DNA from: Muribaculaceae bacterium
GTDB taxonomy: Bacteria; Bacteroidota; Bacteroidia; Bacteroidales; Muribaculaceae
Length of the DNA: 64,000 nucleotides
Assembly: GCA_022509065.1 (NCBI GenBank)
Contig: JAFLTY010000002.1
Location: 1 to 64,000, forward strand
Direction: 5' to 3'
Below, one piece after another: positions 3,794 through 23,809 of the stretch. The position numbers were made by a program, and so were the translations under genes. The first letter of the stretch is position 1. Each line of letters starts with the position of its first letter. The notes beneath the pieces are model-generated. The model was not told the origin of the DNA and did no database searches. It saw only the letters and a list, made by a program, of their open reading frames with translations.

Positions 3794-3800
3794 AGTTGAA

Positions 3801-4349
3801 TTATTCGAAATCCGAATTTAATGTGCCATTAAAAGCGATAGCGTTTATTGCGCGAAGTACATTTGTAAGTGTTTGGCTCCAAAAGTCGACAAACGATTCT
3901 TTAACAGCGGCCAACGCGTCATTTATAATGACCACAGGAGCTTCTCGACATGTTTCGAGGAGGTCGTAGTATACCTGAAAAAGATCTGCGAGACATTCGC
4001 TTATGGTAGCGGCTATAGGAGAATCAGAGTATTTCATGTCCTGCATGAAAACTTCGAGAAAAGTGTCTTCTTCACCAAGTAGAGAAGCTATTGAGTCGCG
4101 TGCAGTGTTATATGCGTCCTCATCGAGTGCGGGTGCTATATAACCGCCTTCGCCTTCAAACATATCCACTTTAAGATCTATTGCCGAGATATAAATACGC
4201 GGCAACAAACGCACCATACGATCCACAAAAGATTGAGGCTCATAGTCACCTATGTTTTCAATTGCCTCACAGTATTCGTTGCATAATGCGAGAAACGATA
4301 ACGCGTTAGGTGTCAATTGATCGGATTGATTATCGTTAAATGCATCCAT
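3801..4349 (-). CDS. DUF5063 domain-containing protein
   Basis: 182 aa acidic helical protein adjacent to nadD in Bacteroidales. Confidence 0.6.
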   Translation of the reverse strand: MDAFNDNQSDQLTPNALSFLALCNEYCEAIENIGDYEPQSFVDRMVRLLPRIYISAIDLKVDMFEGEGGYIAPALDEDAYNTARDSIASLLGEEDTFLEVFMQDMKYSDSPIAATISECLADLFQVYYDLLETCREAPVVIINDALAAVKESFVDFWSQTLTNVLRAINAIAFNGTLNSDFE

Positions 4350-4939: not shown

Positions 4940-4951
4940 TCCGGGTGAGAA

Positions 4952-5536
4952 TCAAGAGTTAAGAAAATCAGTAATGACACGTCGCGTGTTTATGATGGCT
5001 CTTTCGAGATCGTCGTTGACAAGCTGTTTGTCTAATTTGTCAGCGAAAGAAATCTCGTACTGGGCTTTGGCTATGCGTTCATCGATGACAGACGGGTCTT
5101 CTGTGCCGCGACTTACCAGACGCTTGCGCAGTTCGTCAATGGAAGGAGGCAGTATGAAAAGGGTTAGGGCATCGTCGCCAAATATTTTTTTTACGTTCAT
5201 AGCCCCCTTCACGTCGATGTCAAGAACAATATTTTCGCCTCTATTCAGAGCGGTTCGCAATTCCGATTCGAGAGTGCCGTAATAACGGCCGGGATAAACT
5301 TCTTCCCACTCAATAAACTTATTCTCGGCAACTGCCTGTTTAAATTCAGGGGTTGTCATGAAATGATAATGAACGCCGTCAACCTCGCCATCGCGTGGGG
5401 CGCGGTTGGTAGCCGACACTGAAAACTGCAGCGGCATATCGCTGTCATCGAGTATGGAATTGATAATGGTTGACTTGCCGCATCCCGAGGGAGCAGCCAC
5501 AACAAACAGTTTTCCTTTCTTTTGCCCGTTATTCAT
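4952..5536 (-). CDS. gmk: Guanylate kinase
   Basis: VVAAPSGCGKSTI, SVSATNRAPRDGEVDGVHYHF, LDIDVKGA. Confidence 0.95.
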   Translation of the reverse strand: MNNGQKKGKLFVVAAPSGCGKSTIINSILDDSDMPLQFSVSATNRAPRDGEVDGVHYHFMTTPEFKQAVAENKFIEWEEVYPGRYYGTLESELRTALNRGENIVLDIDVKGAMNVKKIFGDDALTLFILPPSIDELRKRLVSRGTEDPSVIDERIAKAQYEISFADKLDKQLVNDDLERAIINTRRVITDFLNS

Positions 5537-5555
5537 ATCTTTTGGTTTTAATTGA

Positions 5556-6446
5556 TTACATAACGTTGAGCACCTGCTCTTTTATTTGCTCGAGTTCATC
5601 TTTCATTCTCACAACTATGTTTTGCATTTCGGCATGGTTGCTTTTAGAACCGAGAGTGTTGATTTCGCGGGTCATTTCCTGCGCGATAAAACCGAGCTTC
5701 TTTCCTTGTCCACCTTTGGGTTGGTTCATTGTCTCGATAAAATAATCGAGGTGTTGTCTTAAACGTTGCTTTTCCTCATTGACATCGAGTTTTTCGATGT
5801 AATATATCATTTCTTGCTCGAGTCGGTTTTTATCGTAATCAACTGCCGGTATCTTGGAAAGAGAGTCGGTAAGACGTTCTCGTATCTTTTCTACCCGTTC
5901 TGTTTCATATTTGTCGACCTGTGAAAGCAATTCGCGGATACGCTCAATGCGTAGGCTGAAAAATTCTTCCAATCGAAGCCCCTCGCTTCTACGGTAATCC
6001 ATCAATGCTTTCAGCGCGGATTTTGCTGTATTCATTACATCGACCAGCAGTGTGTTTGTGGTCTGTTCGGATTGATCGAATTCGTCGGTTGCCGTCACTA
6101 CGTCAGGTAACCTCAGTATTGTCGCATACCAATCCTCGGGCGCCGGAATACCGACAATTCTTGCTACTTCGGTCAGTTGATCCTTATATGCGGCAAAGAC
6201 ATCGGGATTGATGCGCGAAGAAGTACGAAAGTCCGTCCTTTCGATATTGATAATCAGATCTATTTTTCCTCTTTCGGCAATCGATGACACTAAACTACGC
6301 AACTCCGGTTCGATGGATCTGCAGCCGAAGGGCATACGACAAGTCAGGTCGAGTTGTTTGGAATTAAGAGACTTGACATCCGCGGTGATTTTACGGGTTG
6401 GAGTTTCTGTGATGTGGCTGCCGTATCCGGTCATTGAGTAAAGCAT
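5556..6446 (-). CDS. YicC family endoribonuclease-like protein
   Basis: MLYSMTGYG start and C-terminal REINTLGSKSNHAEMQNIVVRMKDELEQIKEQVLNV. Confidence 0.93.
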   Translation of the reverse strand: MLYSMTGYGSHITETPTRKITADVKSLNSKQLDLTCRMPFGCRSIEPELRSLVSSIAERGKIDLIINIERTDFRTSSRINPDVFAAYKDQLTEVARIVGIPAPEDWYATILRLPDVVTATDEFDQSEQTTNTLLVDVMNTAKSALKALMDYRRSEGLRLEEFFSLRIERIRELLSQVDKYETERVEKIRERLTDSLSKIPAVDYDKNRLEQEMIYYIEKLDVNEEKQRLRQHLDYFIETMNQPKGGQGKKLGFIAQEMTREINTLGSKSNHAEMQNIVVRMKDELEQIKEQVLNVM

Positions 6447-6540
6447 AATCTCTGATTGTGTTGAAAGATGCTTAGAGTTAAACGTAAGGAGATGATGTGA
6501 AAAGTAGTTGACGCAAATTTACAAAAAAATCTGATATATG

Positions 6541-6608
6541 AGAGCCGGGTTTGACAATTTATCTTCTTTGACTCTTCAGCGCTTAACAGTTATTGTCGAA
6601 CCGGCTCT
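6541..6608. repeat. Hairpin of repeated family (copy A)
   Basis: AGAGCCGG gttt GACAAT ... ATTGTC gaa CCGGCTCT; same arms as 29592-29623 and 37892-37926. Confidence 0.6.
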
Positions 6609-6942
6609 TAAGATACTGAAGATTGAGTTGTTGTACTTTCCAATATATAGAGGCAATAGATAAAAAATAAAAAAACTAAAAAGTGTTAACAAGGCATGGT
6701 AAAAATAAAAAGTAAGTTAAAAAATCATCTTTACTATAAAAAAAACCATTAAAAAAAGTTGTGTGAATTTGGAGTTATGTATATTTTTGTGCTTTGTAAG
6801 AAGATAGGCGATAAACGCATCGTTGTTTTTTCTTCAAAAATTCAAGTTATTTCATTGTTTTGTAACAAAATTGTTATTTTTATAAGCCAATCGTTTACAA
6901 ACCAAAAGAGACAAGGTTTAATCCGTCTGTCTTATAATAAAT

Positions 6943-7524
6943 ATGTGTTTAAAAAGATATTTACTAATATTGCTTACCATGGTTAGTCTTGCCGCAGTTA
7001 CAAAAGCGCAAGACGTTTCGGTAAAGACTAATTTGTTATATGACGCGCTCGCCAACGTCAATGCGGGAGCCGAAGTTAAGCTCGCTCCTCGATGGTCGGT
7101 TGATGTATCGGGCGATTTCAATTGCTGGACAATAAATGAACACAAGTGGAAGCACTGGTTTGCTCAACCCGAACTGCGTTATTGGTTTTGCGATGCCTTT
7201 GCGAAACACTTTGTGGGTGTCCATGCCATAGGCGGTCAATATAACGTAGGTAATATTAGTGGCCTCCCTAATTTTTTAGGTAATGATTTTTCTAAACTGG
7301 CTCATGAACGCTATCAAGGATGGGGCGTTGGCGGAGGTGTCGCTTATGGTTACGCTTTACCATTAAGCCATCATTGGAACATGGAGTTCGAAATAGGCTT
7401 CGGTTACGTTTTTCTTGATTACGACATATACGAATGCCACGATTGTGGTAAGAAAGTAGGCGATAAGAAACATCATTATGTTGGTCCGACAAAAGCCGCC
7501 ATTAATCTTGTTTACATATTTTGA
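6943..7524 (+). CDS. DUF3575 domain-containing protein (fimbrial-locus outer membrane protein)
   Basis: Signal peptide, then VKTNLLYDALANVNAGAEVKLAPRWSVDVSGDFNCW, beta-rich, C-terminal aromatic F. Confidence 0.85.
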   Translation: MCLKRYLLILLTMVSLAAVTKAQDVSVKTNLLYDALANVNAGAEVKLAPRWSVDVSGDFNCWTINEHKWKHWFAQPELRYWFCDAFAKHFVGVHAIGGQYNVGNISGLPNFLGNDFSKLAHERYQGWGVGGGVAYGYALPLSHHWNMEFEIGFGYVFLDYDIYECHDCGKKVGDKKHHYVGPTKAAINLVYIF

Positions 7525-7544
7525 CAGGAAAGGAGAACAGTAAG

Positions 7545-9020
7545 ATGAAAATAGGATATATTCTCAAAACAGGCATATTTGCCACGTTTTTCCTTTCAGC
7601 AAGCGTACTTTCGGCCAGCGAAACGCAACAACAGCTTGTACGTCAAATGACCACAGTCCATGACACCGTGGTTTGGAACATTCCGGTCAATGACATCACT
7701 ATGAAACGCAATGGCGATCTTTTGTCCGTAGGAATGGATATCGCTGTTGGGCAATACCCCATGCATGGAGACAAGGTGACTGTGCTTACACCAATGCTTG
7801 TCAACGGCAAAGACACTCTTTCGCTTAACAGCACCGGGCTTTACAGTCGCATACGATACATTCAATATCTGCGCGACGGGCGTGAACCGGTCAGCGGTCC
7901 CGACGAAACAGCCTATAAGTATTCCAAGCGTCCCGCAGTGCTTGATGTGAAAGAAGCTCTCAATTACGACGAATGGATGAACGGCGCAACTCTTTACCTT
8001 GAACGTTGCGATTATGGCTGTTGCCATACTTTGACCTATCGCGATCTGGTGCCTCTGGGACGTTGGCATCAGGCTATGTACACACCGGCATACCATTATG
8101 TCACACCTGAAGCTGAATTGGTTAAATTGCGTGAACTGAAGGGTAGGGCTTATATCGATTTCCCGGTCAATATGACCAACCTCTATCCCGACTATCGCAA
8201 AAACCCCATAGAACTTCAGAAAATCATTGCCACTATTGATTCAGTGCGCAATGACGAAGATGTAACAATCAAAGAAATCACCATCAAAGGTTACGCATCG
8301 CCCGAAAGCTCATGGAGCAACAACACACGCCTGGCTATGGGGCGCACGGCCACTTTGAAGAACTATGTCCAGAACTTGTATCGTTTTGACGAAAACCTGC
8401 TCAAAACAGACTTCACTCCCGAGGACTGGGAAGGTTTGCGCGAGTTTGTGGCTCAGTCCGGTCTCGAGCATCGTGACGAGATTCTGGCTCTCATAGACGA
8501 CCAATCCATCGAGCCCGATCCAAAAGAGGCGCTCCTGAAAAAAAGATATCCTCAGGAATACGATTTCCTGCTTAAGAATGTGTATCCGGCGCTACGTCAC
8601 TCCGACTACACCATCGAGTACACGATACGTCTATACACAACCCCCGACGATATTAAGCGTGTAATGGCGGAGGCTCCGCAAAAACTGTCACTCAACGAAT
8701 TTTTTGTTCTCGCTCAGTCTCTCCAGCCCGGTAGCGATGAGTATAACGAGGTTTTTGAGACTGCCGTGCGTATGTATCCCAACGATGAGGTTGCCAACCT
8801 CAATGCCGCCAACTCGGCCATGCAGCGTGGTGATATGACTAATGCCGCGCGATATCTCGAGAAAGCTGGCGACTCGGCCGATGCCGTTTATGCGCGTGGG
8901 GTTTATGCAGCTCAGACAGGCGATTATGACCGGGCGGCAAAACTTTTCCGCCAAGTAGCCGACACTATTCCCGAGGCTGCCGACGCTTTGACTTTTATAA
9001 ATGAATTAATTGTAAATTAA
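7545..9020 (+). CDS. DUF3868 / OmpA-like domain protein with C-terminal TPR-like region
   Basis: ATG at 7545 preceded by aaaggaga (ORF track begins upstream at TTG 7521); IKGYASPESSWSNNTRLAMGRTATLKNYV is OmpA-like; helical repeats at C-terminus. Confidence 0.8.
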   Translation: MKIGYILKTGIFATFFLSASVLSASETQQQLVRQMTTVHDTVVWNIPVNDITMKRNGDLLSVGMDIAVGQYPMHGDKVTVLTPMLVNGKDTLSLNSTGLYSRIRYIQYLRDGREPVSGPDETAYKYSKRPAVLDVKEALNYDEWMNGATLYLERCDYGCCHTLTYRDLVPLGRWHQAMYTPAYHYVTPEAELVKLRELKGRAYIDFPVNMTNLYPDYRKNPIELQKIIATIDSVRNDEDVTIKEITIKGYASPESSWSNNTRLAMGRTATLKNYVQNLYRFDENLLKTDFTPEDWEGLREFVAQSGLEHRDEILALIDDQSIEPDPKEALLKKRYPQEYDFLLKNVYPALRHSDYTIEYTIRLYTTPDDIKRVMAEAPQKLSLNEFFVLAQSLQPGSDEYNEVFETAVRMYPNDEVANLNAANSAMQRGDMTNAARYLEKAGDSADAVYARGVYAAQTGDYDRAAKLFRQVADTIPEAADALTFINELIVN

Positions 9021-9138
9021 TTATATCACCAATGAAATTTCCGGGTCTCTCATTCCGGTTTCCTGGAAAGTGATCCCAACAAATCTTTTAGAAATTAATT
9101 CGAAAAAAAAATAATAAAAACCATTCAATACTAACAAA

Positions 9139-10974
9139 ATGAAAAAGAGTCTCTTATTACTCTCGATGGCAGCCCTTCTTTGGAGCTGTTCGAACGATGA
9201 ACCGGCCTCGAAAAACCCAAGCGAAAACGAGGGCCGTGTTTCTAACTATCTTTCAGTTAAAATCCGTCCTGCAAGTGCCGGAGGCAGAGCTACCTATGAA
9301 CAGGGTGGCGGTACATATGAGGACGGCATAGGAGAAGAGAGTGCAGTCAACGCTATTCGTCTGTATTTCTTCGATGCTGCCGGTAATGCTGCCAAGGCCT
9401 TCCATCAGGGCGATACATACAGTAATTACTGGGATTGGAATAAAGATATAGAAACGGGCTCTGGTGACCATAATCAGACAGTCGAAGAAACTGTAATCGC
9501 CACCGTTGTGCCCTTGACTATGGATGAAATGTCTGAAAAACCGGCATATATCGTGGCTGTCATCAATCCCACTGCAAATATATTGCAAAATGTCGGAAGC
9601 ACTACTCCACAAGGAGTTGTTGGAATGAGTCTGAAAGACTTGAGGAGGGCTATTGCCAATTATATGCCTTCCGGCGAGGCCGGTAGCTTTGTGATGAGCA
9701 ATTCGGTATATGCTGATAACGATGTGGTTATCGATGCCACTCCTATCAATCCCAATTGTTTCCAGCCCACCGAAGACGCCGCCAAGGAAAATCCTGTAAT
9801 AATATATGTTGAACGTGTAATCGCGCGTGTGGATTTCGGCGTCAACATGGAGGGAGCTACCGATATGGATCCGGAAGCGCAGGGTACATTCTATAAAATC
9901 GGTTCTTACCTCGTTGAAGAATACGATGAAACTGCAAAGAAAAACGTTTCGCATGAAGAAGTTATTTATGTTAAATTCCTTGGATGGAACGTTACAACCA
10001 CCACCAATGTTTCGCGTCTTATCAAATCTATCGATACCGGCTGGTCTGACCAGGAGCTCATGGGAGATCTGACTCTTTGGAACTCTGATAATTACCATCG
10101 TTCTTTCTGGGCCATTAATCCTCCCGTAAACGGTAACCCCGGTCTTGAGTTCTCTTATGGAGACTTCGGCAGGGTAGATGATAGCACAGGTAAGTTCACA
10201 GGCACCGGCAATTTTGCAACTGCTTTAGACATTCCTGCTAAAGGTAATTATAAAACGGCCTACCTTCAGGAGAATGCCGCTCCCGATGAAGAAAAAACAG
10301 CCGGTCCCACCAATCCTTCACAGGTTATCGTTGGTGCTCAGCTCGTCGATAAAAGTGGTAACCCCTTTACTCTCTGCCAATGGGGTAGTTACAAATACAC
10401 TTTGAATGGTTTGAAAAATGCAGTTGCCGATGTCTGCAAACTGTATTATAAAGAAGGTGACGAATATATCAAAATCAAACCTTCTATGATTGACTTTGAG
10501 CAGATTAGCGCGAGCGAATCCAATCAAGACAATAATTATGCTGTTTTCCCCATCATTGCTGAGGGCGTTAACTATACTTGGTACATTCCCGATGCTACAA
10601 ATACCATGCAGCCTATTGCACAAGGTACTTACGAAAATCTCCTTGCAGCCGTTAACGCGGAACTCAAGAACGAAATCGGTAGCGTCATGATATGGAACAC
10701 CGGTTGGACATATTACTATTTTGACATCCGTCACCTTGGCTACAACACTGACTTAGACCCCGACAAGCAGCAGAACATCGCCGCTTTCGGTATTGTCCGT
10801 AATCACATCTATCGTACAACTGTCACCTCTGTAAAAGGTCTCGGGACCCCTGTATACAATCCCGATCAGGTTATCTATCCCGAACCCGTCGATCCTACCG
10901 TTACTTCGCTTGCCGCTCAGATCGACATCCTGTCGTGGCGCGTCGTAGCACAGGACTATGAGTTTGTCTGGTAA
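9139..10974 (+). CDS. Mfa1-like major fimbrillin (type V pilin)
   Basis: Lipobox LLWSC; NAIRLYFFDAAGNAAK; C-terminal IDILSWRVVAQDYEFVW; downstream of DUF3575/DUF3868. Confidence 0.85.
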   Translation: MKKSLLLLSMAALLWSCSNDEPASKNPSENEGRVSNYLSVKIRPASAGGRATYEQGGGTYEDGIGEESAVNAIRLYFFDAAGNAAKAFHQGDTYSNYWDWNKDIETGSGDHNQTVEETVIATVVPLTMDEMSEKPAYIVAVINPTANILQNVGSTTPQGVVGMSLKDLRRAIANYMPSGEAGSFVMSNSVYADNDVVIDATPINPNCFQPTEDAAKENPVIIYVERVIARVDFGVNMEGATDMDPEAQGTFYKIGSYLVEEYDETAKKNVSHEEVIYVKFLGWNVTTTTNVSRLIKSIDTGWSDQELMGDLTLWNSDNYHRSFWAINPPVNGNPGLEFSYGDFGRVDDSTGKFTGTGNFATALDIPAKGNYKTAYLQENAAPDEEKTAGPTNPSQVIVGAQLVDKSGNPFTLCQWGSYKYTLNGLKNAVADVCKLYYKEGDEYIKIKPSMIDFEQISASESNQDNNYAVFPIIAEGVNYTWYIPDATNTMQPIAQGTYENLLAAVNAELKNEIGSVMIWNTGWTYYYFDIRHLGYNTDLDPDKQQNIAAFGIVRNHIYRTTVTSVKGLGTPVYNPDQVIYPEPVDPTVTSLAAQIDILSWRVVAQDYEFVW

Positions 10975-11002
10975 GAAAATCGCCATGTCATAGGCAATTT
11001 TC
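10975..11002 (+). other. Stem-loop immediately after fimbrillin stop codon
   Basis: GAAAATCGCC atgtcata GGCAATTTTC, 10-bp arms with one C-A mismatch, no T-tract. Confidence 0.5.
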
Positions 11003-11068
11003 CGGATATCAAACCTACGCTCGTTCTATAAATTGCGTATAATCCCTTTCATTTTCAAGGATTAACCA

Positions 11069-12178
11069 ATGTCATTTTTTAAATCAGTAAAAAAAACGTT
11101 AACAGTCGCTATCGCCTCGATTGTCGGTCTGTCTTTCTCGTCGTGCGAGGATTTCTTCGATTACGAAGGCGATTGCGACGTTATCCACAAAGTCCGTTTT
11201 GTGTACGACCTGAACCTCAAATGGGCGGATGCTTTTCCGTCCGAGGTAAAATCGGTCAACCTTTACGTCTTTGATTCCAAAGGCATATTTGTCAGGGAGT
11301 ATTCCGAAAGCGGTGATGCTTTGTCACAACCCGGTTACGAAATAACACTCGACCTCCCAGCCGGCGACTACACTTTGCTTGCTTGGTGCGGTCTGCACAA
11401 CGAGGGTGTCGATAGTGAATCGTTCACTGTGCCTTCGCCTGTTGTCGGTGTCACTCATATCGAGGAGATGACCTGCGTCATGAATACTACGCCGACGCCC
11501 ACTAAGTCGCGCGCCGATGAGCCGATGGTTTATTCGGACCGTCGTCTGCAGTTTCTTTATCATGGGCTTCTCGATGTTACTCTCGAGGACAATCACGACG
11601 GTAAGGAGTACATACACACAGTCTCTCTAACAAAAGATACAAACCACATTCGCATCATTCTTCAGGAACTGTCCAGCGAGCAGGGACTCAACGAAGACGA
11701 TTACGAGATTTATATCGAGGATGCCGACGGTCGTATTGCCTATAACAACGACCTTATCGGCAGTCAGATTGTACATTTCTCGCCCTGGAGTCAGGTTACC
11801 GATGCGGTAGGCGTGGGTCGTGTCGAGGCTGGTGGTATCAAATATGTGAACGGACTTGTTGCCGATTTAAGCGTAGGTAGGATGATGGCTTCCCGACAGA
11901 ACGACATGATGCTTACAATCCGCAATGCCCATACGCATTCCGACATCATTGCGCGCGTTCCCCTTATCCAGTATGCTTTGCTCTCGCGTACTTATTATGA
12001 GATGGCATACGGACATACTATGACACCACAGGAATTTCTTGACCGTGAGGACGAGTATGTCTTGACGTTCTTCCTTTATAACCAGACATGGATGGGCGCT
12101 TACATCGACATCCTTTCATGGCGAATTGTCCTGGGTAATTACGACATGACATCTTATTCTTTTTGGGATAAAAATTAA
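11069..12178 (+). CDS. FimB/Mfa2 family fimbrial anchor protein
   Basis: Lipobox SFSSC; CDVIHKVRFVYDLNLKWADAF...VKSVNLYVFDSKGIFVREYSESG; LPAGDYTLLAWCGL. Confidence 0.87.
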   Translation: MSFFKSVKKTLTVAIASIVGLSFSSCEDFFDYEGDCDVIHKVRFVYDLNLKWADAFPSEVKSVNLYVFDSKGIFVREYSESGDALSQPGYEITLDLPAGDYTLLAWCGLHNEGVDSESFTVPSPVVGVTHIEEMTCVMNTTPTPTKSRADEPMVYSDRRLQFLYHGLLDVTLEDNHDGKEYIHTVSLTKDTNHIRIILQELSSEQGLNEDDYEIYIEDADGRIAYNNDLIGSQIVHFSPWSQVTDAVGVGRVEAGGIKYVNGLVADLSVGRMMASRQNDMMLTIRNAHTHSDIIARVPLIQYALLSRTYYEMAYGHTMTPQEFLDREDEYVLTFFLYNQTWMGAYIDILSWRIVLGNYDMTSYSFWDKN

Positions 12179-12222
12179 CATTCCCTTTATGGGCTGATTA
12201 TGTTGCTGGGTTACATTCTGAA

Positions 12223-13638
12223 GTGACAATGGTGAAAGCTTTTCAACATATCATCGTGATGCTCCTTATGTTAGGATGTCTCCCCGCTGTGACATCCTGC
12301 GTCATGGAGAAAGCCTTCGACGCGCCCGGTAGCGGTGATGACGATGACAAGCTGTATGTTTACCTTAACATCACTCCGCTCAATTCTGTCGTTAACACTA
12401 CAGCAACCGACAACGAGTATGTCAAGTCATTGCGTATCGTGTTGCTTTCCGACGGCATGATTGAACGCAACGAATATGTCCCTCTCGATCAGCTTGCAGT
12501 CACCCTGACTTATCGCTCGCGCATGGAAACTGTGGAGGGTAGGAAAGAATTCTATCTTATCGCCAATGAGGAAAGTGTCGGACCTGTCTCCTTTATGCCG
12601 TCTGACGGCGTCTCGCTGCCGAACCCTTTGCCCGAAGGCACTCTCCACCAGTTGCTTGAGAGCTATACACCCGAATTCTCGGTTGAGGATGTAAATGAAA
12701 ATACCGGGGGCACTTCCGATAACGCTCCAACTAAAGGCGAGGAACTCGCAGCTCTGTTAAACGCCGTGTATTTCTCACCTGAATACACTGCCGGTGATGA
12801 TGGGCGTATTTATCTGCCGTATGTCTCTTATTATGGCACGTACGACATAGAAAAGGGCGTCGATCATTCGCTTACGAATCCGGATGGTATTTTCGACCCT
12901 AATCCCAACCCCATCAACATGTATCTGGTGCCTGTTGCCACTAAATTCACTTTCAACTTCACCAACTATCGTGAGGATGCGGTGAATATTAACGAAATTA
13001 CCATCAATAGCGTTAACAGTCAGAACTATCTGCTCGCAAGAGTGGGGGAAAATGATATGACAAAAAGACTCCCAGGTTCTGACGACGACCTCTATTGGAT
13101 CGACTGGCTCGGTGAAGTGTCCCATCTTTCCCAGAGCAATGCCGGTTTCTATCCCAATATCAATTTTAATGGAAAGTATGGATGGATAACTGACTACGCG
13201 TTGCCTTTCGAAACCGAAACCAATACCGCCAATCAGTATACCTTTATTGGCGGCAACATTCAAGGTTTCAAAGTGCTTGGAGGAGCAAAGGACAATCCCT
13301 ATTTCTGCACCGTTGGTCCTTTTTATATCCCGGAAAGTAAAAACTTTTATAACCCGATTACTGAGCAGAATGAGGATGAACAGGCATATTACCTGACGTT
13401 CAATTTTGAGGATACCAAGGTAGGCGAGGATCCGCAGGAGTATCAATACGTCAACATTTCCAACCTTAAAGCGTTGTTCCGCAATACACATGTTATCATT
13501 AACATTAAGATGGAACCGGGTCCCATTAAAGTGTATGCCGAGATAGCTCCCTGGATTGTGAAATCTATTAACGGATGGGTTACCGAAGGCGGTGTGCCTA
13601 ACCCCAATCCCTTCAAGATCAAAGCCGCAGATAAATGA
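12223..13638 (+). CDS. Fimbrillin-like accessory lipoprotein
   Basis: Lipobox PAVTSC; fimbrillin-like strands; MEPGPIKVYAEIAPWIVKSINGW near C-terminus. Confidence 0.72.
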   Translation: MTMVKAFQHIIVMLLMLGCLPAVTSCVMEKAFDAPGSGDDDDKLYVYLNITPLNSVVNTTATDNEYVKSLRIVLLSDGMIERNEYVPLDQLAVTLTYRSRMETVEGRKEFYLIANEESVGPVSFMPSDGVSLPNPLPEGTLHQLLESYTPEFSVEDVNENTGGTSDNAPTKGEELAALLNAVYFSPEYTAGDDGRIYLPYVSYYGTYDIEKGVDHSLTNPDGIFDPNPNPINMYLVPVATKFTFNFTNYREDAVNINEITINSVNSQNYLLARVGENDMTKRLPGSDDDLYWIDWLGEVSHLSQSNAGFYPNINFNGKYGWITDYALPFETETNTANQYTFIGGNIQGFKVLGGAKDNPYFCTVGPFYIPESKNFYNPITEQNEDEQAYYLTFNFEDTKVGEDPQEYQYVNISNLKALFRNTHVIINIKMEPGPIKVYAEIAPWIVKSINGWVTEGGVPNPNPFKIKAADK

Positions 13639-14954
13639 AAGGTAGGATGAAACAATTCTTTTACATATTTGCTTTATTGCTTTTTTCGGCTTGTTCTAAT
13701 CATATTATTGATGACGAACCGGAAAATATCGACAGTGATGAAGTAAAGACTATCTCGGTAATGTCTCATTTGCCCAAATCGGCAGGTGGCGTTGACACTT
13801 ACGCCGACGATGCGGAATCGGGAGACAACTCCCAATCGAGTGGTGCGTCTGACAATATTATCATCGACAAGTTCGAGGAGGGTAGCCTGCTTTATATTTC
13901 GCAAATGGGTCCGAGCATTAATCCCAATTTCAGCGATTTCTCTACGGATGCAGAATCTTACTGCTACGTCTATCAGTACTCCGAAAACCCTTCTGCCAAC
14001 TGGAATTACGATTATAATTTCATCCTTCCTGAAAATGATGATTTTGAGATTCCGGGTGTTGTCGGAGAGGGAAGCTCTGGTGTAAGAAACCCCATCAAAT
14101 GGAATGTCATCAAGCAAATGGGTTCGGTCGGTAATTCTTTTAATTTCTATGCATTCTTTTTCCCGGTCGAAAACGAGGTGAGATGGAGTGTAGAGGAAGA
14201 CCAGAGGGGGCCGGAAACAAATCGTTACGATCAGACTAATTTTAGGAAATCAGACATACTCGGTGCATACCACACTACCTCCTCCCTATACAGCCGTCTG
14301 CGCTTCAACCTTTTCCACCTGATGGTTTACCTGAAGGTGACTCTTTATGTGCCTGATGTCCAAGATGTGGCAGACGATACATCTAATTTCAAGTATTCGG
14401 GATTTGACGAAACCGCGCTTCAAGGAGCATATGTGCTGAACGCGGCTAAAGATTTTGAAATAGAGTGGCGCGCCAGCCGAAGTTCTGACACGGATCCGCC
14501 TCTGACACAGGCAAAATCTAACAAAACCAATATCCGGATGTATTTGCACGAACCCGATTATAAGGTTTTTGAATTAGAGAATATTAAAAGTTCATTCAAT
14601 CCCAGTTATCAAGGTGAGGATACAGAACAAGTTCGCGAATACAATTTCAGCGTTCTATTCCCCAACCAGTCTTTCAATGGCAACTTTTTGTGCTTTGCAC
14701 TGAAGGATAAGGAGGGTAACATGCGTTACTTCTATTTTGCCAGCAATCAGATTAACGGCTCAAGCGGTAACTATGGTTTTGCACCGGGAACACTGCAGGA
14801 GCTAAAGTTATTCCTTCCGCGCGAAACCAACCAGACTATTCTCATAAGCGCCAACGTTCTCCCATGGTCGAGTGCCGTAACCGACATGACGGTGTCTCAA
14901 CAGGGTGCGACTGACAAGAATGATGATAATCCGACAGGAAGCGACAACAACTGA
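13635..14954 (+). CDS. Fimbrillin-like accessory lipoprotein
   Basis: ATGA overlap with upstream gene (alternative start 13647); lipobox LLFSAC; terminal ISANVLPWSSAVTDMTVSQQG. Confidence 0.7.
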   Translation: MKGRMKQFFYIFALLLFSACSNHIIDDEPENIDSDEVKTISVMSHLPKSAGGVDTYADDAESGDNSQSSGASDNIIIDKFEEGSLLYISQMGPSINPNFSDFSTDAESYCYVYQYSENPSANWNYDYNFILPENDDFEIPGVVGEGSSGVRNPIKWNVIKQMGSVGNSFNFYAFFFPVENEVRWSVEEDQRGPETNRYDQTNFRKSDILGAYHTTSSLYSRLRFNLFHLMVYLKVTLYVPDVQDVADDTSNFKYSGFDETALQGAYVLNAAKDFEIEWRASRSSDTDPPLTQAKSNKTNIRMYLHEPDYKVFELENIKSSFNPSYQGEDTEQVREYNFSVLFPNQSFNGNFLCFALKDKEGNMRYFYFASNQINGSSGNYGFAPGTLQELKLFLPRETNQTILISANVLPWSSAVTDMTVSQQGATDKNDDNPTGSDNN

Positions 14955-14979
14955 GAATGACGATAAATCTTATAGACGA

Positions 14980-16458
14980 ATGAATAGCTATTTATATCGA
15001 TACATATCTTGCCTCAAGGTGGCGTTGGGATGTCTGCTCGCCCTGCCGGCCGTCGTGTCGTGTACCAATGAGGTACCCGAGATTGTCGACCCCGAAACTG
15101 GTGCCTCGATAACAGTAAGTGCCGATATAGCCAATACGCTGTTTTCAAGAACCTATATCGAAAAAGGACAGGTAGATAAAGGTACTCTATATATCTCTTA
15201 CCCCACAACTTCTAACAATGTTTATGCGACTTTGCCGGTCCAATTCGGAGTGGAGGGAGTTTCCCCTCAGATTGGTATGGTGCAAACGGGCGATCCCGAC
15301 AAGAAATTCGCCTGGACCATGGTCAGTGACTTCGCCACGCCGACTTTTTACCTTGACAACGTCAGTATCGATGGTTATACAGTAGATCGTGAAGCACCCA
15401 ATATAGTTATTTTCGACGATACGAATAATCCTTTCCGTGCCGGTAAATTTGATGATGAAAATGGAACAAACGACTTGCTATGGGGTGAAAAACAGGTCAG
15501 CAGGCAGTCTACCAATACTTTGGTTTTCGACCTGCACCACAACATGTCACGAATTCGTCTCGAGATTACTGTAGATAAGACCAATGTTGCTGATGACAAT
15601 TTTGACCTTGAGACAGGTGCTAAAGTCTCTATTTCGTCCATAAATCAGACTCCGGTTTCGTACAATCGTCTTGACGGTACATTGGCACTTGACTCCGAAC
15701 CCAAAGACGGAGTAAGTCCTTACTCCGATCTGACTTTTGTCAACATAGGATCTGAAATTGAAGCAAAGGATGTAATCGGTTGGGCTAAGGAACCGCAGCA
15801 AGACCCTGCAAATGAAAAAGTATGGGTTTATACTACTTACGATTTTGTTGTTCCTCCGCAGGGTCTTCTTGATGATGAAAACCGTCCCCGTCTCACCATC
15901 GAGACTAAAAACGGAAAGACCTATTCGGGTATCCTCCCTCACGCTATGCTGATTACCGACCCAAACAAACCAGGCGATACCGAATTGACATATCCGGTAA
16001 CAATGTATTTCCTCAAGGAGCATATTCTGACCATCCGTACCCGCATAACCGAAGAACCTCCGACACTGTCGTTCATGCCTGTTCAGGTTGTTCAATGGGT
16101 TGACAAGGGCACTTTCTCGCTCGAAGGTCATCAGGCAGGTCTATATTTCGCCCAAGAATTCTACAAGCTTATAGGTTACTATACTAACTATAACGAATAT
16201 CAGTTGACACGTTACGGCACAAAATCACCGGTAGAACAAGGTTCGAGTGTCTATAAGTGGACGTTCCCGGTATTCCGTTCTTTCACTGTTAAATACGAAG
16301 ATGTTTATGGAAAAATGGTTCCCGGAGGCGAAAAGCTTGATTTCGAATTTGTCTTTAACGGTTATTCGGTGTTCGTCACTAAAGATGGTGAAACCAAATC
16401 GGTCACTCCTAACCAGTTATCCGGTATTGTAAAAGGTACCTCTTCGGCACCTTTCTAA
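14980..16458 (+). CDS. Fimbrillin-like accessory lipoprotein with C-terminal extension
   Basis: Likely start at 14980 (MNSYLYRYISCLKVALG); lipobox PAVVSC; VQVVQWVDKG followed by ~105-aa extension. Confidence 0.7.
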   Translation: MNSYLYRYISCLKVALGCLLALPAVVSCTNEVPEIVDPETGASITVSADIANTLFSRTYIEKGQVDKGTLYISYPTTSNNVYATLPVQFGVEGVSPQIGMVQTGDPDKKFAWTMVSDFATPTFYLDNVSIDGYTVDREAPNIVIFDDTNNPFRAGKFDDENGTNDLLWGEKQVSRQSTNTLVFDLHHNMSRIRLEITVDKTNVADDNFDLETGAKVSISSINQTPVSYNRLDGTLALDSEPKDGVSPYSDLTFVNIGSEIEAKDVIGWAKEPQQDPANEKVWVYTTYDFVVPPQGLLDDENRPRLTIETKNGKTYSGILPHAMLITDPNKPGDTELTYPVTMYFLKEHILTIRTRITEEPPTLSFMPVQVVQWVDKGTFSLEGHQAGLYFAQEFYKLIGYYTNYNEYQLTRYGTKSPVEQGSSVYKWTFPVFRSFTVKYEDVYGKMVPGGEKLDFEFVFNGYSVFVTKDGETKSVTPNQLSGIVKGTSSAPF

Positions 16459-16519
16459 ACGTGTCATTAAATCGGACAAGGATGAAAGTCCCTTCGATAA
16501 AGTTGAATAAAGGAAATAA

Positions 16520-18292
16520 ATGAATATAAACCAATCAATAAAAGCTGTTATATCGTCTGTCATAATGCTGACGGCGGTGTCGTGTAACGAGGCGTGGGAT
16601 AACCCATCCGAAGATGGTGTGTCATATCCTCTCGTTGTATATGCTGAAATTGTCGGACAGGTTAAGTCTGAGAGCCGGGCTAACCGTACCGAAATCAACG
16701 ACATGTGGTCAATTACGGCATTCACCGAGAATGACAAAATCGGCATCTTTGCCTCCGCCGGTAACTTCGCTGATGATAACGGCCCCTTTAATAACTATGA
16801 ACTGACCTATTTGGTCTCCGCTGACGGTGAAATGTTTAAAGGTGAGGACGGTGCCACGTTCAGTCCAACGGCTATGAACGGAAACGAAGCGGTCATATAT
16901 TATCCTTACAGTAAAGATGTTACGAATCCCGGCATGTGGTTGCGTACCACTGCCGAGGGAGAAACATCACCGTTGCGCTGCGTTGATATGCTCGTCTCGA
17001 CTGAGTTGGTAATTGCTGGGGAAAATAGCGCTCTTTACGGTAAAATGGGACATCTGTTTGCCGAGCTGATAATTATGCGTGGCCCCGGTTTTGATGATCC
17101 TCCCCAGGGTTTGGATCGAATTACGGCCGTGCTGTCCGACCCTGTCACACGGGTAAAAATCGAAATGACGACCGATCCCTGGAATTGCGTTCCTGAAATG
17201 GTTTATATCGAAAATGACGGAAACATGACAAAGGATGATGCACGAAAATGGGACGCATGGAAAGGTGGCGAATTCCAACCTACCGAACAAGATGAAGGTA
17301 AACCGGCATGGTATGTTATTGTTCCTACCGTCGGCAGTAACGAAGGTATAACAAGACCCGGCAATCGCTCGATAGTCGACTATATAGAACTGTATGACAA
17401 TCAAGGTCACTTGCAAAGGGTTTCCGGACTGCAGTTAAGCGGACACAATTCGAAATATGTGGATGCTGGATGGCGCTATCCTTTAGAGATAACCATGAAC
17501 GAGCTTGTGCCTACCGTCAGTGTCTTTCCAATTCTGCCTTGGGGTGAGGATATCAACCTCACTGACGAAAGGAAAAGAGGTATCAACAACTTAGCCGAGT
17601 TTGCTAACTGGATACATGACTACAATTTGTATGTGCTCACTCCCGAGAATGAAGAAAAAGTCCAGGCGTTGTTGAAATACGGTGACAAATATCAGGATCC
17701 GGAAGGCAAAATTTCGTGGCACTTCTATTTGCTGACCGACATCGATCTTACCAATTATAACCCGTTGCCGTATGAAGACTTGAACGGTTCAACCATAACC
17801 GAATCGGAATTTATACTGCCTAAACTGCAGGATATCCTTGATGGCAAAAGTACAACATTGGTTAACGGTAAGTTTTTGAACCATAAGATAATTGGTCTTA
17901 ACAAAACTTTTGTCGGTGAAATGACCACCAACTCTTCGAATCAGAACAACGGTTCTATCCAGAATGTAGACTTCGTTAATCCCGATGTCAAAAAAGAAGA
18001 AACCTCGGATACTCCTACCGGAATTATCGCCAATTCGATGAACGGTGCGTCGGTTATTAATTGTCGGATTCTTCAGGGTAGCCTATACAATCCCGGAGGC
18101 CCTGCCGGAATGATAACAGGTACCATCAACGACGGTACGATCAGAGATTGTTCCGTTTCCAATTTCATGGTATGTAAATCCACCGCCACCGGCGATGCTT
18201 CAAGAATTGTAGGGGTGAACCCCACAGGTGAATGTACCTTTGTAAACAATAATGTTGATGTCGCGATGAATAATGAAACAGAGCAACCATGA
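16520..18292 (+). CDS. Fimbrillin-like accessory lipoprotein with beta-helix-like C-terminal domain
   Basis: Lipobox LTAVSC; FPILPWGED then LAEFANWIHDYN; C-terminal GTIRDCSVSNFMV/GASVINCRILQG repeats. Confidence 0.7.
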   Translation: MNINQSIKAVISSVIMLTAVSCNEAWDNPSEDGVSYPLVVYAEIVGQVKSESRANRTEINDMWSITAFTENDKIGIFASAGNFADDNGPFNNYELTYLVSADGEMFKGEDGATFSPTAMNGNEAVIYYPYSKDVTNPGMWLRTTAEGETSPLRCVDMLVSTELVIAGENSALYGKMGHLFAELIIMRGPGFDDPPQGLDRITAVLSDPVTRVKIEMTTDPWNCVPEMVYIENDGNMTKDDARKWDAWKGGEFQPTEQDEGKPAWYVIVPTVGSNEGITRPGNRSIVDYIELYDNQGHLQRVSGLQLSGHNSKYVDAGWRYPLEITMNELVPTVSVFPILPWGEDINLTDERKRGINNLAEFANWIHDYNLYVLTPENEEKVQALLKYGDKYQDPEGKISWHFYLLTDIDLTNYNPLPYEDLNGSTITESEFILPKLQDILDGKSTTLVNGKFLNHKIIGLNKTFVGEMTTNSSNQNNGSIQNVDFVNPDVKKEETSDTPTGIIANSMNGASVINCRILQGSLYNPGGPAGMITGTINDGTIRDCSVSNFMVCKSTATGDASRIVGVNPTGECTFVNNNVDVAMNNETEQP

Positions 18293-20679
18293 CGGAAATA
18301 TTTAAACGACATATTGCGTGGTGTTTGATAACACTGTTGGTAATGCCTTTCATGCTGACGGCATGTAGCGATGATTTCGAAATTCCGACAAACGGTTATG
18401 AAACAAGCGACGAACTCCCCGTAGAATTCGAGTTTCTTCTACCCGAAGACTTGGGGTCAAGAGGTTTTGCTCCTGACGAAACCGTAAAAACGAAATTTGA
18501 GGATGGCGATGTCATTCATTTGTTTGGCACTTTCAAGACCCGTATCCTCCAGGAAAACGGTAATTATATAGATGGTCCCATAGTTAAGCGATATGGTGCT
18601 TTGAAATATAACGGTAAGCTGTGGAGACCGGTCGAAGGCTCGACCCTAACATGGCCGTCGATATCGGTGTCTGGTACCTTCGTAGCTTATTACATCAAAG
18701 AAAGTAACGGTGTGCTTAACAGTGAAAAATCGAGTGAAACCTACAACCTGTCGTCCGTCACACCCTCGTCTGACCCGCTTAAGGCTGAGTCGGAACCGGA
18801 TGTTCCTTACGGAAACGGTCTTAGGATGAGGTTCGGTCACCTTTGTGCGTATCTTGCGCTAATCGACCTCGAACCTATGGTAGCCGAACGGTATTGGTTC
18901 CTGACAGACAATGTTAAGGAATCGGCCGATGGTCCCAACAAGATTTTTAACAATGCTTTCAAGATATCCCTGAACGAAACTACTGAAGGGCCCGAAGTCA
19001 TTTTCGAATTCTGTCAGGTTGGGGGCGAAAAAGGTTATGAAAACTTGACATATATAGCCGGTAATGTGACAAATATCGAGGGTTCCGACCAGGATAACAA
19101 CCTGCAGGTTACCGCACGAGCCGGTTTCTTCCTTGAGCCCGGATTTTATGAGTCGTTCGAGCTCGTTTATCCTTCGGGTCAAGGCAAGACCTACAGCTAC
19201 CTTGAATACAATTACAAAAACGTTCCTGATAATTCGGGTGGTGTCGGAGTAACAAACACTCCCCCCGATTTGAAAGCAAACAAGTCTTATACTCTCACTA
19301 TTACCAAATCGCCAGGTATTACTGTGAACACCCCTCCGGTGGCAGGTGGCTGGGATGAAAGCGAAACCTATTTTGATATAGATGTCGAGGAGTTCCTGAA
19401 AGCCATTAATGATGAGAAAGAATATAAAGTTAAAGATGAGTACGGTAATGATGTAACCATTCTCGAGGAGACTCCAAACGGAACCAAGCTTCTTCATAAT
19501 GTAGATTTTAAAAATTTTGATTACTCAAAGTTTAATGATCAGACGTTCCGTGCTAATAATATGGAAGGATCGGTGTTCGACGGTGATTATCACTATATTA
19601 GAAATCTGGGCAGTCCTCTTTTCAGATATAACTTCGGAACGATTCAGAATCTTGGAATCAAAGGTGCCAAAATTGAGCGCGTGTCCTATGAGGATAAGGA
19701 CCTGAACAATGATATGAGCCGAAACGGAGCGCTGTGCATGTGGAACCGAAGCAATGCAACCATATCGAATGTGCGCCTATCGGACGTCGAGATAACTATT
19801 TATATAAAATCGGTAGATTCGGAAGGTCAGGAAGCACACAATATCGGCGGTATAGTAGGTGCCAATACAGGTGTCATAAACGGAGCTGCCATATCGGGTA
19901 CATACAATATTACGGTTACCGGACTTGCCGCTGATAATGAGTTAAATAAAGACAAAAAGAATTACCCCGTAAACGCATCTGTACTTATAGGTGGCATCGC
20001 GGGGCAGAATGCCGGTGAAGGCGATATATACGACGTGTCACCGCTTGAAGGTTCCCCGGTCATCAACATTTACAACAATTGTGTGGGACCATTGGGCGCC
20101 TATTCTGTTGGAGGCGTTATCGGTGAATCTCAAGGTTATATTACCGGAGTCATTCTGCCTTACATCAAGGTAGACGCTACAAAGAGCAGTGGTCTGACAT
20201 CTTATATCGGAGGTATTGTCGGTCAGTTGGCAGTTTCGACAGACTCAGACAATGCCGTGCTCAACGAATGCGTGGTGAGCGGAACGGTAAGGGCCGGTGT
20301 GTCACAAGGATTGAATGCAAGCGGCCTGTCCAGTGTGTCGTTCATCGGCGGAGTGGCTGGCACTGTTTTGAGCGTTCCGGTTTTGGATTGCAGTTCAGCT
20401 GTATCGGTCTATGCCACGACAGAACCGAAAGCCGGAGTACTTTACGGAACCGGTGGCGCTTTCGGTCGTATCCGCAAGTCGGAAAGTTACAACATAAAAG
20501 ACATCACTGCATACGGCAATGAGTTGATTGCTCCGGCTGGAATTACAACCAACAATTATTACGGAAGCTTTGCCGGGATAGTTCCTGCCGGTCAGACGTG
20601 GATTGATGATTACAGCAAAAGCAACATCACCATCCACAGATTCCCCAACATGAGTGAAATCGGAGGTGATATCGATTGA
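18289..20679 (+). CDS. Large fimbrillin-like lipoprotein with GLUG-like repeats
   Basis: ATGA overlap with upstream gene; lipobox LTAC; repeats NIGGIVGANTGVINGAAISG, LIGGIAGQNAGEGDIYDV, SVGGVIGESQGYITGV, YIGGIVGQLAV, FIGGVAGTV. Confidence 0.75.
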   Translation: MTEIFKRHIAWCLITLLVMPFMLTACSDDFEIPTNGYETSDELPVEFEFLLPEDLGSRGFAPDETVKTKFEDGDVIHLFGTFKTRILQENGNYIDGPIVKRYGALKYNGKLWRPVEGSTLTWPSISVSGTFVAYYIKESNGVLNSEKSSETYNLSSVTPSSDPLKAESEPDVPYGNGLRMRFGHLCAYLALIDLEPMVAERYWFLTDNVKESADGPNKIFNNAFKISLNETTEGPEVIFEFCQVGGEKGYENLTYIAGNVTNIEGSDQDNNLQVTARAGFFLEPGFYESFELVYPSGQGKTYSYLEYNYKNVPDNSGGVGVTNTPPDLKANKSYTLTITKSPGITVNTPPVAGGWDESETYFDIDVEEFLKAINDEKEYKVKDEYGNDVTILEETPNGTKLLHNVDFKNFDYSKFNDQTFRANNMEGSVFDGDYHYIRNLGSPLFRYNFGTIQNLGIKGAKIERVSYEDKDLNNDMSRNGALCMWNRSNATISNVRLSDVEITIYIKSVDSEGQEAHNIGGIVGANTGVINGAAISGTYNITVTGLAADNELNKDKKNYPVNASVLIGGIAGQNAGEGDIYDVSPLEGSPVINIYNNCVGPLGAYSVGGVIGESQGYITGVILPYIKVDATKSSGLTSYIGGIVGQLAVSTDSDNAVLNECVVSGTVRAGVSQGLNASGLSSVSFIGGVAGTVLSVPVLDCSSAVSVYATTEPKAGVLYGTGGAFGRIRKSESYNIKDITAYGNELIAPAGITTNNYYGSFAGIVPAGQTWIDDYSKSNITIHRFPNMSEIGGDID

Positions 20680-20701
20680 TAAACCATCTATGGTATCTAT
20701 A

Positions 20702-22330
20702 ATGAATATAAAAAAATTAATATATAGCAGTAAAATAAACGTCATCGGGTTGCTGCTTGTCATGGCGGTTATATCATCCTGTCAGTCGCAATTACGCGAA
20801 CCCGATATGTCGGATGAAAAAGTAACGTTCATCGGCTATTTAAAAGAAGATGCCGAAGTCAGGTCACGCACACTCGACTCGGTTTATATCAACTCAACCT
20901 ATCAGGATCTTGACTTTTTTGTTCAGCTCGAATGGGGTACGCAAAAAGAATTCGGAATCTATGAGGTATCATCGGCCTACGAAGGTCGTTTAAATGCCAA
21001 AGGAACTCAAGATGAGCTTAACTGGAAAGATCTTACAACTCCACACACCTTTTATTCTTGGACACTTCCCTGGAATCCCGAATGGGATCAGACACAAGGA
21101 GTGCCTGAGTCTTTCGAGATTGAATTTAAAAATTCATCGGAAGGTGACGATTATAACGATGCGTTGAACAACAAGGTTTTGGAACGTTTTATAGGAGCGA
21201 TGTCGGGACCGTATTCCTATGCAAACCGCGGCAAATATGTCGACCTTACATTTTTCCATCTTGTGTCAAAGATAAAGATAGCCGATCTTTCACTGATTGA
21301 GACGGACGGCTCAATTCAGAGACACCTTAAGGCAGACGTGACGTTTATCAACATGCCGACGAAGGCCACATTCTATCCGTGTCCGACAGAAGATCAACTT
21401 GCAAACAATCAATATGCTCCCAAAATCAGGCGACCCTTTGTTGTGCCAGGCGAGGCTAATCTCGACGACGGTATCACGTACTTTATAGATAATGATGCCA
21501 GGGATCAAACCGATGTATTCTATATCTGTCCGGAAATAGACTTCCGAGAGCTCGATTATAAAATAGTGCTGAACAATACGGAATATGCAAACTACAAAAC
21601 ATATTATGGCACATTCGCAAATGTAGAGTTTATCAGAGAAGCCGGGAACGATTATGATTTGGGTGATGAGGACAAATACATACTCCATGCGGGAGAGATG
21701 ATGACTCTTTACATATCTCTTATACCCGGTATCGGACCCGGTTTGAGACTGATTATAAGCGACTGGAGTACTGACAGACCTACCGAAGCTGAATATCACA
21801 GCCAGCCGGGTATATACTCGGATGCAGAATTTAACGCGTTTTTAGATTCGTTCCTCAACCAAACGGATTATAGCCAACCGCCAGCTAATATTGAGAGCTT
21901 ATTCGAAATGTATGGCAAAGAAGGTGAAGATGGTAACAATTATTTCCAGCTTTTTGACGATGTTTTCAGTAACAGCAATATCTTTCCGGTCTATAAAGGT
22001 TATACAATCGACGGACAAGGACATACCGTCTTTATGAAGACAAATCGCGGTAATTATTTCCCGGATAGACCCGGCGACCATTACTATTTTAATATAGGTC
22101 AGTGTGAGGATATTTATCTTAAAAGCGAAAGCGATAATCCCCAGTATGGAATTTATATAGATAAAAACCACTGTGTATGGGTGCTAAACGCTGATACAGG
22201 AGAGTATGAACAGACAGAGTATAAACTTGATCCGTTCCCGCTGAAAGACCCTTATAAAGGTTATGATATCAGTGCTGAAACAGGGCAGGTGCGTCCGACG
22301 GATTATTACAACAATAATATTACAAGATAA
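20702..22330 (+). CDS. Fimbrillin-like accessory lipoprotein with C-terminal extension
   Basis: Likely start at 20702 (MNIKKLIYSSKIN); lipobox VISSC; LIISDWSTDR then SDAEFNAFLDSFLN; YKGYTIDGQGHTVFMKTN. Confidence 0.7.
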   Translation: MNIKKLIYSSKINVIGLLLVMAVISSCQSQLREPDMSDEKVTFIGYLKEDAEVRSRTLDSVYINSTYQDLDFFVQLEWGTQKEFGIYEVSSAYEGRLNAKGTQDELNWKDLTTPHTFYSWTLPWNPEWDQTQGVPESFEIEFKNSSEGDDYNDALNNKVLERFIGAMSGPYSYANRGKYVDLTFFHLVSKIKIADLSLIETDGSIQRHLKADVTFINMPTKATFYPCPTEDQLANNQYAPKIRRPFVVPGEANLDDGITYFIDNDARDQTDVFYICPEIDFRELDYKIVLNNTEYANYKTYYGTFANVEFIREAGNDYDLGDEDKYILHAGEMMTLYISLIPGIGPGLRLIISDWSTDRPTEAEYHSQPGIYSDAEFNAFLDSFLNQTDYSQPPANIESLFEMYGKEGEDGNNYFQLFDDVFSNSNIFPVYKGYTIDGQGHTVFMKTNRGNYFPDRPGDHYYFNIGQCEDIYLKSESDNPQYGIYIDKNHCVWVLNADTGEYEQTEYKLDPFPLKDPYKGYDISAETGQVRPTDYYNNNITR

Positions 22331-22332
22331 GA

Positions 22333-22374
22333 GCAAGAGGCTGCCTAACTTTTTATCGTTAGGCAGCCTCTTGC
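22333..22374 (+). terminator. Strong hairpin ending the fimbrial locus
   Basis: GCAAGAGGCTGCCTAAC tttttatc GTTAGGCAGCCTCTTGC, perfect 17-bp stem directly after the last stop codon. Confidence 0.8.
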
Positions 22375-22459
22375 ATATAGAGCACGTCGCACATAGCGTT
22401 ATGCGTGTATAAGAGAACGCACACCTTCATTAAGTGCTCGCTGCTAAAGAGGTTTGTTA

Positions 22460-23809
22460 TCAGGCTCCTTTTTCAAGATGGTGATGACGCCCGCGAGTTG
22501 CGTATTCCATTACACGGTTTATAGTGGCGTTGTCACGGTGTACGCGCATGGAAAGATGACGGGCATACTGACCGTAATCCTGTATTGGCTCCTTGGCGAC
22601 GCCTGAATCGGCAGCAGCCTTTGCGACGGCAGGAGCCACAGTGCTGATAAGGCGCGGATCGAAAGGAGTGGGGATGATGTATTCTTTACCGAAGCTGAGT
22701 TCACGACCACCTACGGCACGCCGTACTGAATCGGGTACAGGCAGATGGGCGAGGTCGGCAATGGCATGGACAGCCGCTATCTTCATGTCTTCATTGATGA
22801 CGGAAGCGCGACAGTCGAGAGCTCCTCGGAAAATGTATGGGAAGCCGAGGACATTGTTGACCTGATTGGGATAATCGCTACGTCCCGTGGCAAAGATAAG
22901 GTCATCGCGAGTCTTTTTCGCAACATCATAAGCAATTTCGGGGTCAGGATTCGCCAAAGCGAAGACAATTGGTCGGGGTGCCATGGACTTAATCATATCC
23001 GGAGTGACAACATCGGCTACGGACAGACCTAAAAAGACATCGGCACCCTTCATTGCGTTGGCGAGGGTCTCATAGGGTACATCACGGGCAAAGGCAGCTT
23101 TCTGAAAAGACAGACTGGAGCGTCGCGTGGTGATTACACCTTTCGAATCGCACACCACTATATTGTCTGGGTTTACACCTAACTCAATAAATAGTTTTAT
23201 GCAAGACGTTGACGCGGCACCGGCACCGTTTACGACAACGCGCACTTCACCTATGCTTTTTCCCTGCAATTCGAGAGCGTTAAGCAAAGCCGCCCCGCTT
23301 ATGATGGCAGTTCCGTGCTGGTCGTCGTGCATGACAGGGATGTCGAGTCGATTTTTGAGACCATCCTCGATAACGAAACAGTCAGGAGCCTTGATATCCT
23401 CGAGATTGATGCCACCGAAAGTGCCTGCGATAGCACGGACCACCTCAATGACTTTCTGCGGGTCTTTCTCGTCAACTTCGATGTCGAAGCTGTCGATATC
23501 AGCGAAAATCTTGAAAAGAAGCGCCTTCCCCTCCATGACCGGCTTGGATGCCTCGGAACCGATATCTCCAAGCCCAAGGACGGCAGTACCGTTTGAGATG
23601 ACTGCGACGAGATTACCCTTGTCCGTATATCGATAGGCGTTAGCAGGTGATTCCTCGATTGCTTTGGATGGATATGCCACACCTGGCGAATAGGCAAGAC
23701 CTAAATCGTATTGCGTGCGATATGGCTTGGTTGGTGTTATCTCGATTTTACCGGGACGTGGATATTCATGATAGCGCAGAGCTTCTTCTTTGAGTGTGTC
23801 TTTTTTCAT
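22460..23809 (-). CDS. Malic enzyme (malate dehydrogenase, decarboxylating), short form
   Basis: [66 protein letters not shown]. Confidence 0.93.

Follow-up and report, generated by a model that had tools for sequence, protein, structure and literature searches.

An ordered six-gene accessory cassette in a probable type V pilus locus of Muribaculaceae and other Bacteroidales

Among the commonest Gram-negative bacteria of the gut, type V pili serve as adhesion fibres. In a Muribaculaceae genome, six accessory pilin genes, here named A5 to A10, follow the stalk and anchor genes (M1 and M2) of such a locus and constitute a conserved cassette of fixed order, which is described here as new. The order A6-A7-A8-A9-A10, on one strand, recurs in 26 other loci, with A5 likewise in place wherever the sequence stretch reached it, so that the cassette locus looks like a real variant, undescribed until now, and not an isolated case. 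We consider, with a probability of roughly 0.7, that its genes specify a single type V pilus whose tip has six subunits, and the six accessory genes form an old, ordered and apparently exchangeable cassette.

Gene content and transcription signals of the locus

The window, the whole 64,000-nucleotide stretch of DNA analysed here, comprises bases 1-64000 of a contig of 110,030 bp, so that the locus is interior to the contig, and the source genome (2.28 Mb in 91 contigs) is 95% complete. Ten plus-strand genes (6943-22330) are flanked by two minus-strand genes that we take, from recognition of their sequences by eye, to be yicC and a malic enzyme gene (Table 1). An assembly chimera was ruled out, as the same gene order is found in many independent contigs. 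All ten open reading frames (ORFs) of the initial annotation were recovered in one direction with unchanged coordinates, its eight consecutive lipobox-cysteine ORFs all matched a simple lipobox pattern (matched by only 4 of the 39 other ORFs of the window), and the two gene overlaps it reported, at 13635 and 18289, are both real, the 4-bp overlap of A8 and A9 being present also in loci L033, L084, L086 and L087. Across relatives, each accessory family retains the lipobox Cys in 92-100% of its aligned rows, and all eight pilins are predicted to be made as lipoproteins.

Table 1. Positions in the window of the pilus genes, their neighbours and the candidate transcription signals
Feature	Position	Strand	Basis
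yicC	5556-6446	minus	named by reading of sequence
Candidate promoter, TTG-N20-TATTTTTG	6759-6789	plus	motif match
o1, DUF3575 outer-membrane-barrel-like	6943-7524	plus	Pfam DUF3575
o2, OmpA/TPR-type protein	7545-9020	plus	TPR matches
M1, stalk pilin, Mfa1 family	9139-10974	plus	NF038041, Fimbrillin_C
M2, anchor pilin, Mfa2/FimB family	11069-12178	plus	Pfam Mfa2
A5, accessory pilin	12223-13638	plus	AF2 model and Foldseek
A6, accessory pilin	13635-14954	plus	AF2 model and Foldseek; Mfa_like_1 in relatives
A7, accessory pilin, C-terminal domain repeated in relatives	14980-16458	plus	Mfa_like_1
A8, accessory pilin with extra C-terminal region	16520-18292	plus	Mfa_like_1
A9, fimbrillin-like N-half and GLUG/M26-type repeat-rich C-half	18289-20679	plus	Mfa_like_1, Peptidase_M26_N
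A10, accessory pilin	20690-22330	plus	Mfa_like_1 in relatives
17-bp perfect hairpin, A10/malic enzyme gene interval	22333-22374	.	inverted-repeat match
Malic enzyme gene	22460-23809	minus, convergent	named by reading of sequence

The first two genes, o1 and o2, head most of the related loci. The o1 product matches DUF3575 with 248 bits in Pfam, and that of o2, previously labelled DUF3868, gave no Pfam DUF3868 match at E-values up to 0.1, TPR repeats being its sole Pfam matches; its start is more likely the ATG at 7545 than the TTG at 7521, and it is likely a periplasmic or outer-membrane partner. The proposed stalk and anchor are both borne out: M1 scores 145.6 bits against the NCBIfam Mfa1 family NF038041 (cut-off 130), has a Pfam Fimbrillin_C match and hits PDB entry 4jrf (4e-4), and M2, beginning 94 bp past the stalk gene, matches Pfam Mfa2 with 180.8 bits. 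A second type V pilus locus is present in the same genome (G000:C46, L053, 3090-10167), in the order o1, o2, a protein of 601 aa, an Mfa2 anchor and a 743-aa protein with Fimbrillin_C, followed by the contig end.

Within 6400-22400, the only match to the Bacteroidota-type promoter motif TTG-N19-21-TANNTTTG is the candidate promoter ahead of o1; the motif also starts 92 and 93 bp upstream of o1 in L084 and L033, respectively, and is absent at that place in L087, L092 and L093. A single 15-kb transcript is plausible from this one promoter motif and the short gaps between genes, while those before M1 and M2 (118 bp and 94 bp) leave room for internal signals. The strong hairpin that had been placed only after the last gene is indeed the sole perfect strong one, with 17 bp, and lies 3 bases past the A10 stop codon; its T-tail is on the minus-strand side, and it may therefore act for the malic enzyme gene, which converges on the locus, no less than for the pilus genes. 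This hairpin after A10 is not conserved in relatives. An invertible promoter, as in phase variation, found no support: the inverted repeats upstream are short, AT-rich for the most part, and do not include a clean pair on the two sides of the promoter.

Accessory subunits and their putative processing sites

Each of the six accessory lipoproteins looks like a fimbrillin. The Pfam cut-off for Mfa_like_1, 27 bits, is exceeded by A7 (34.3 bits) and A8 (32.7 bits), and the window proteins A9 (22.7 bits) and A10 (16.0 bits) fall under it; A5 and A6 of the window, taken alone, gave no Pfam match. When relatives of these four proteins were scanned singly against Pfam, Mfa_like_1 was found in 6 of 23 A6 relatives (best 1.1e-9), 6 of 12 A9 relatives (best 6e-10) and 14 of 23 A10 relatives (best 6.5e-9), and a weak FimA match in 5 of 22 A5 relatives (best 3.8e-4). 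The C-half of A9 resembles GLUG/M26-type repeats, Peptidase_M26_N being matched in 8 of 12 family members, at best with 3e-4. When solved sequences were searched with profiles, A8 hit 4eps (1.3e-7) and 4k4k (5e-5), and weaker links joined A7 to 3ufi (0.008) and A5 to 3up6 (0.05).

AlphaFold (AF2) models of A5 (pLDDT 79, pTM 0.76) and A6 (pLDDT 77, pTM 0.76) match solved type V pilins in Foldseek, among them Mfa3, Mfa4, FimA, Mfa2 and Bacteroides pilins, the best matches being 3up6 (BACOVA_04078, 4e-11) and the Mfa3 tip 5nf4 (1e-9) for A5, and 4h40 and 4k4k (1e-8) for A6. The E-values are significant, but the best hits reach TM-scores of only 0.30-0.39 when normalised to the query and 0.40-0.61 when normalised to the target, so that these matches indicate kinship of domains, not the role of a subunit. 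Models and profiles thus support the fimbrillin fold for A5-A8, with Mfa_like_1 in the relatives of A6 as a further line, and for A9 and A10 in their N-halves only, by profile. Checked for accessory ORFs devoid of a fimbrillin-like fold, the locus gave nothing that speaks against the earlier assignment of these genes as pilus subunits.

A7 varies in length among relatives. Its C-terminal domain (profile positions about 369-470) is present in one copy in the 492-aa window protein, in two to three more copies in relatives of 837-890 aa, and in about eight tandem copies in the proteins of two Alistipes MAGs, of 2136 aa (L116, 1529-7939) and 1652 aa (L119, 3067-8025). Since the copy number varies in this way, A7 may determine length at a single point of an otherwise constant cassette.

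A further pattern concerns arginines at about 30 residues past the lipid Cys. Maturation of Mfa1, Mfa3 and Mfa4 of P. gingivalis takes place immediately after Arg49, Arg43 and Arg54, respectively, and the anchor Mfa2 is uncut (PMC5789003). In the present families, M1 has an Arg at about +27 to +39 after the lipid Cys in every row with a readable N-terminus (33 residues past it in the window protein), and in A7-A10 each row whose Cys can be read has one between about +27 and +35, Arg57 of A7, Arg58 of A9 and Arg60 of A10 being invariant in the family alignments and Arg53 of A8 present in 92% of rows. No column with a conserved Arg near +30 exists in the A5, A6 or M2 alignments; A5 of the window has no Arg before +45 and A6 has a Lys at +28 in place of Arg, and many A5 and A6 relatives have an Arg within that stretch at no fixed position. 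The protease that cuts Bacteroides pilins is a surface clostripain (PMC12632263), and a candidate maturation protease, a clostripain-type Peptidase_C11, is encoded in the same genome (G000:C24:11159-12181). Read from sequence, the Arg pattern is the best mechanistic hint that M1 and A7-A10 are assembled by strand exchange and that A5 and A6 may occupy other places.

Conservation, history and distribution of the cassette

Loci with the cassette were collected by an A5 search and an A9 profile search. A8 of L104, masked by a longer antisense ORF, was recovered by tblastn, and the L116 sequence starts at A6; A7 of L089, the HAN066 locus that is also recorded as L110, is split over two overlapping ORFs (frameshift or sequencing error). 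By depositors' names, the carriers belong to Muribaculaceae, Paramuribaculum, Prevotellaceae, Bacteroidales, Alistipes and Bacteroidaceae, in addition to a family coded f68. The cassette spans Muribaculaceae and at least one other family, with identities to the window proteins from 65% down to about 25%. Neighbouring cassette genes overlap or lie from a few to a few tens of bases apart, and in the loci read each member is present in one copy, with no loss of a single member. The synteny check proposed in the initial annotation succeeded beyond the original claim. The accessory set had also been called unusually large, which holds with six genes here versus usually two in congeners and three in P. 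gingivalis (PMC5789003). An anchor match occurs in 35 of the 49 genomes of the genus, where the usual order in the loci read is o1-o2-M1-M2 followed by a gene of about 370-600 aa and a gene of about 950-1200 aa, and the ten-gene form was found within the genus only in the window's own genome and in G016. No description of a six-gene accessory cassette was found in the literature searched, an earlier mention elsewhere being conceivable.

The o1-o2-M1-M2 half does not share its history with the A5-A10 half. The M2 tree puts the window together with HAN066 and HAN050 (SH-aLRT 99), and for M2 the AU test rejects a clade uniting the window with HAN067 and HAN018 (p 8e-9). The A9 tree recovers that very clade (99), and for A9 the grouping of the window with HAN066 is rejected (AU p 8e-8). 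These were quick trees of one gene per half, with groups named after the identities had been seen, which makes the p-values optimistic. The HAN066 locus (2635-17900) has its A5-A10 block upstream of o1, not downstream of M2, and its o1, o2 and M2 are 70-77% identical to those of the window, as opposed to only 32-37% for A5-A10. Moreover, M2 is missing between M1 and A5 in four loci (L086, also L100; L090; L107; L112), so the ten-gene set is not obligatory. Two of the genomes with such anchor-less loci carry another cassette that keeps its anchor, namely HAN057 (L093) and HAN061 (L114 and L115), in which the anchor could be shared in trans.

Recent import by a mobile element was rejected, there being no sign of recent transfer: cassette identity to G016 (about 60% for A6-A10) resembles that of the housekeeping protein YicC (56%), A9 has no plasmid match, and the single tRNA of the window lies elsewhere. 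An empty insertion site could not be defined in congeners, where yicC and the malic enzyme gene are apart or on different contigs.

A strong A9 match was found in 14 of the 397 genomes of the family sample, the other 13 Muribaculaceae carriers all being MAGs of one series, HAN0xx; the carriers G636 and G478 fall outside the family. In a collection of 84,980 species, searched with a pattern step that limits sensitivity, 21 of the 22 loci found were again of the HAN0xx series, and the remaining one was IMSAGC_004. The GTDB genus named for the accession stem of HAN052 (JAFLTL01) has been reported from the plateau pika gut (PMC12530534). As nearly all carriers come from one MAG series, across several families, the distribution suggests a possibly narrow habitat and a habitat-restricted adhesin.

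A proposed type V pilus with a multi-subunit tip

According to a recent review, type V pili have three kinds of pilin, namely tip, stalk and anchor (PMC12632263). In the proposed pilus, all subunits would be exported to the cell surface as lipoproteins, and a clostripain-type protease would cut M1 and A7-A10 after the Arg some 30 residues from the lipid, thereby exposing a groove into which the neighbouring subunit would insert a strand. Lacking a conserved cut site, A5 and A6 could be adaptors or stay held by their lipid; against an uncut A5, however, P. gingivalis Mfa3, its structural match, is itself cut at Arg. A7 would be a length-variable spacer, and A8, A9 and A10, with their extra C-terminal regions, could form the distal binding part. 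A5-A10 would thereby replace the usual accessory pair with a multi-subunit tip, their positions in the fibre being drawn from architecture only.

Much of this arrangement resembles mfa1-mfa5 of P. gingivalis, where an Mfa1-family stalk and an Mfa2-family anchor are likewise followed by fimbrillin-fold lipoproteins, the Arg about 30 residues past the lipid Cys is shared by the stalk and several accessory proteins, and mfa3 takes the place that A5 has here. In contrast to mfa1-mfa5, the present locus has six accessory genes instead of three and no vWA domain of the Mfa5 kind in Pfam, its relatives show tandem-repeat growth of A7, and the DUF3575 and OmpA/TPR genes in the lead are possibly a further difference. 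Ordinary type V loci of the same genus and family (such as L036, L037, L042 and L096) also start with o1-o2-M1-M2, some of them continuing with an A5-like first accessory gene, and then have one protein of some 1000-1200 aa, with DUF4906/FimA matches, in place of A6-A10. The solved Bacteroides pilins 3up6 (BACOVA_04078), 4k4k (BACUNI_00621), 4eps (BACOVA_04982) and 3ufi (BACOVA_04980) are like A5, A6, A7 or A8 in fold or sequence profile, with only about 6-13% sequence identity in the fold alignments.

The separate histories of the two halves, the HAN066 cassette upstream of o1 and the four loci that keep M1 and the cassette without M2 would all agree with A5-A10 forming a surface-lipoprotein complex of their own, such as a second adhesin, merely beside a minimal M1-M2 pilus and outside its fibre. 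We regard this as unlikely, because the cassette adjoins M2 or M1 in almost every locus, with a gap of a few tens of bases or an overlap, its members are fimbrillin-like, four of them carry the Arg site at which pilins are processed in strand-exchange assembly, and ordinary loci (L095, L096 and L097) have a homologue of A5 as their first accessory gene. The accessory proteins might instead be alternative tips that compete for one position and yield mixed pili of different binding specificities, as several of them bear extra C-terminal regions of differing kinds; their fixed order, single copies and lack of single-member loss rather suggest a stoichiometric complex, which makes such competition quite improbable. 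In P. gingivalis, when any one of Mfa3, Mfa4 and Mfa5 is lost, the fimbria lacks the remaining two as well (PMC5789003), a mutual dependence that argues against competing tips and provides a precedent for an interdependent tip.

Beyond the single pilus with a six-subunit tip, which we prefer, it is plausible, though somewhat less likely than not, that the locus represents a distinct type V sub-type, with a six-protein heteromeric tip encoded by a cassette that has recombined between stalk/anchor backbones, is common to several Bacteroidales families within one gut habitat, and has its tip length tuned by the A7 repeats. The six-gene accessory cassette is a natural system in which to test the order and assembly of a heteromeric type V tip, and a possibly host- or diet-specific ligand is suggested by the concentration of the cassette in one MAG series.
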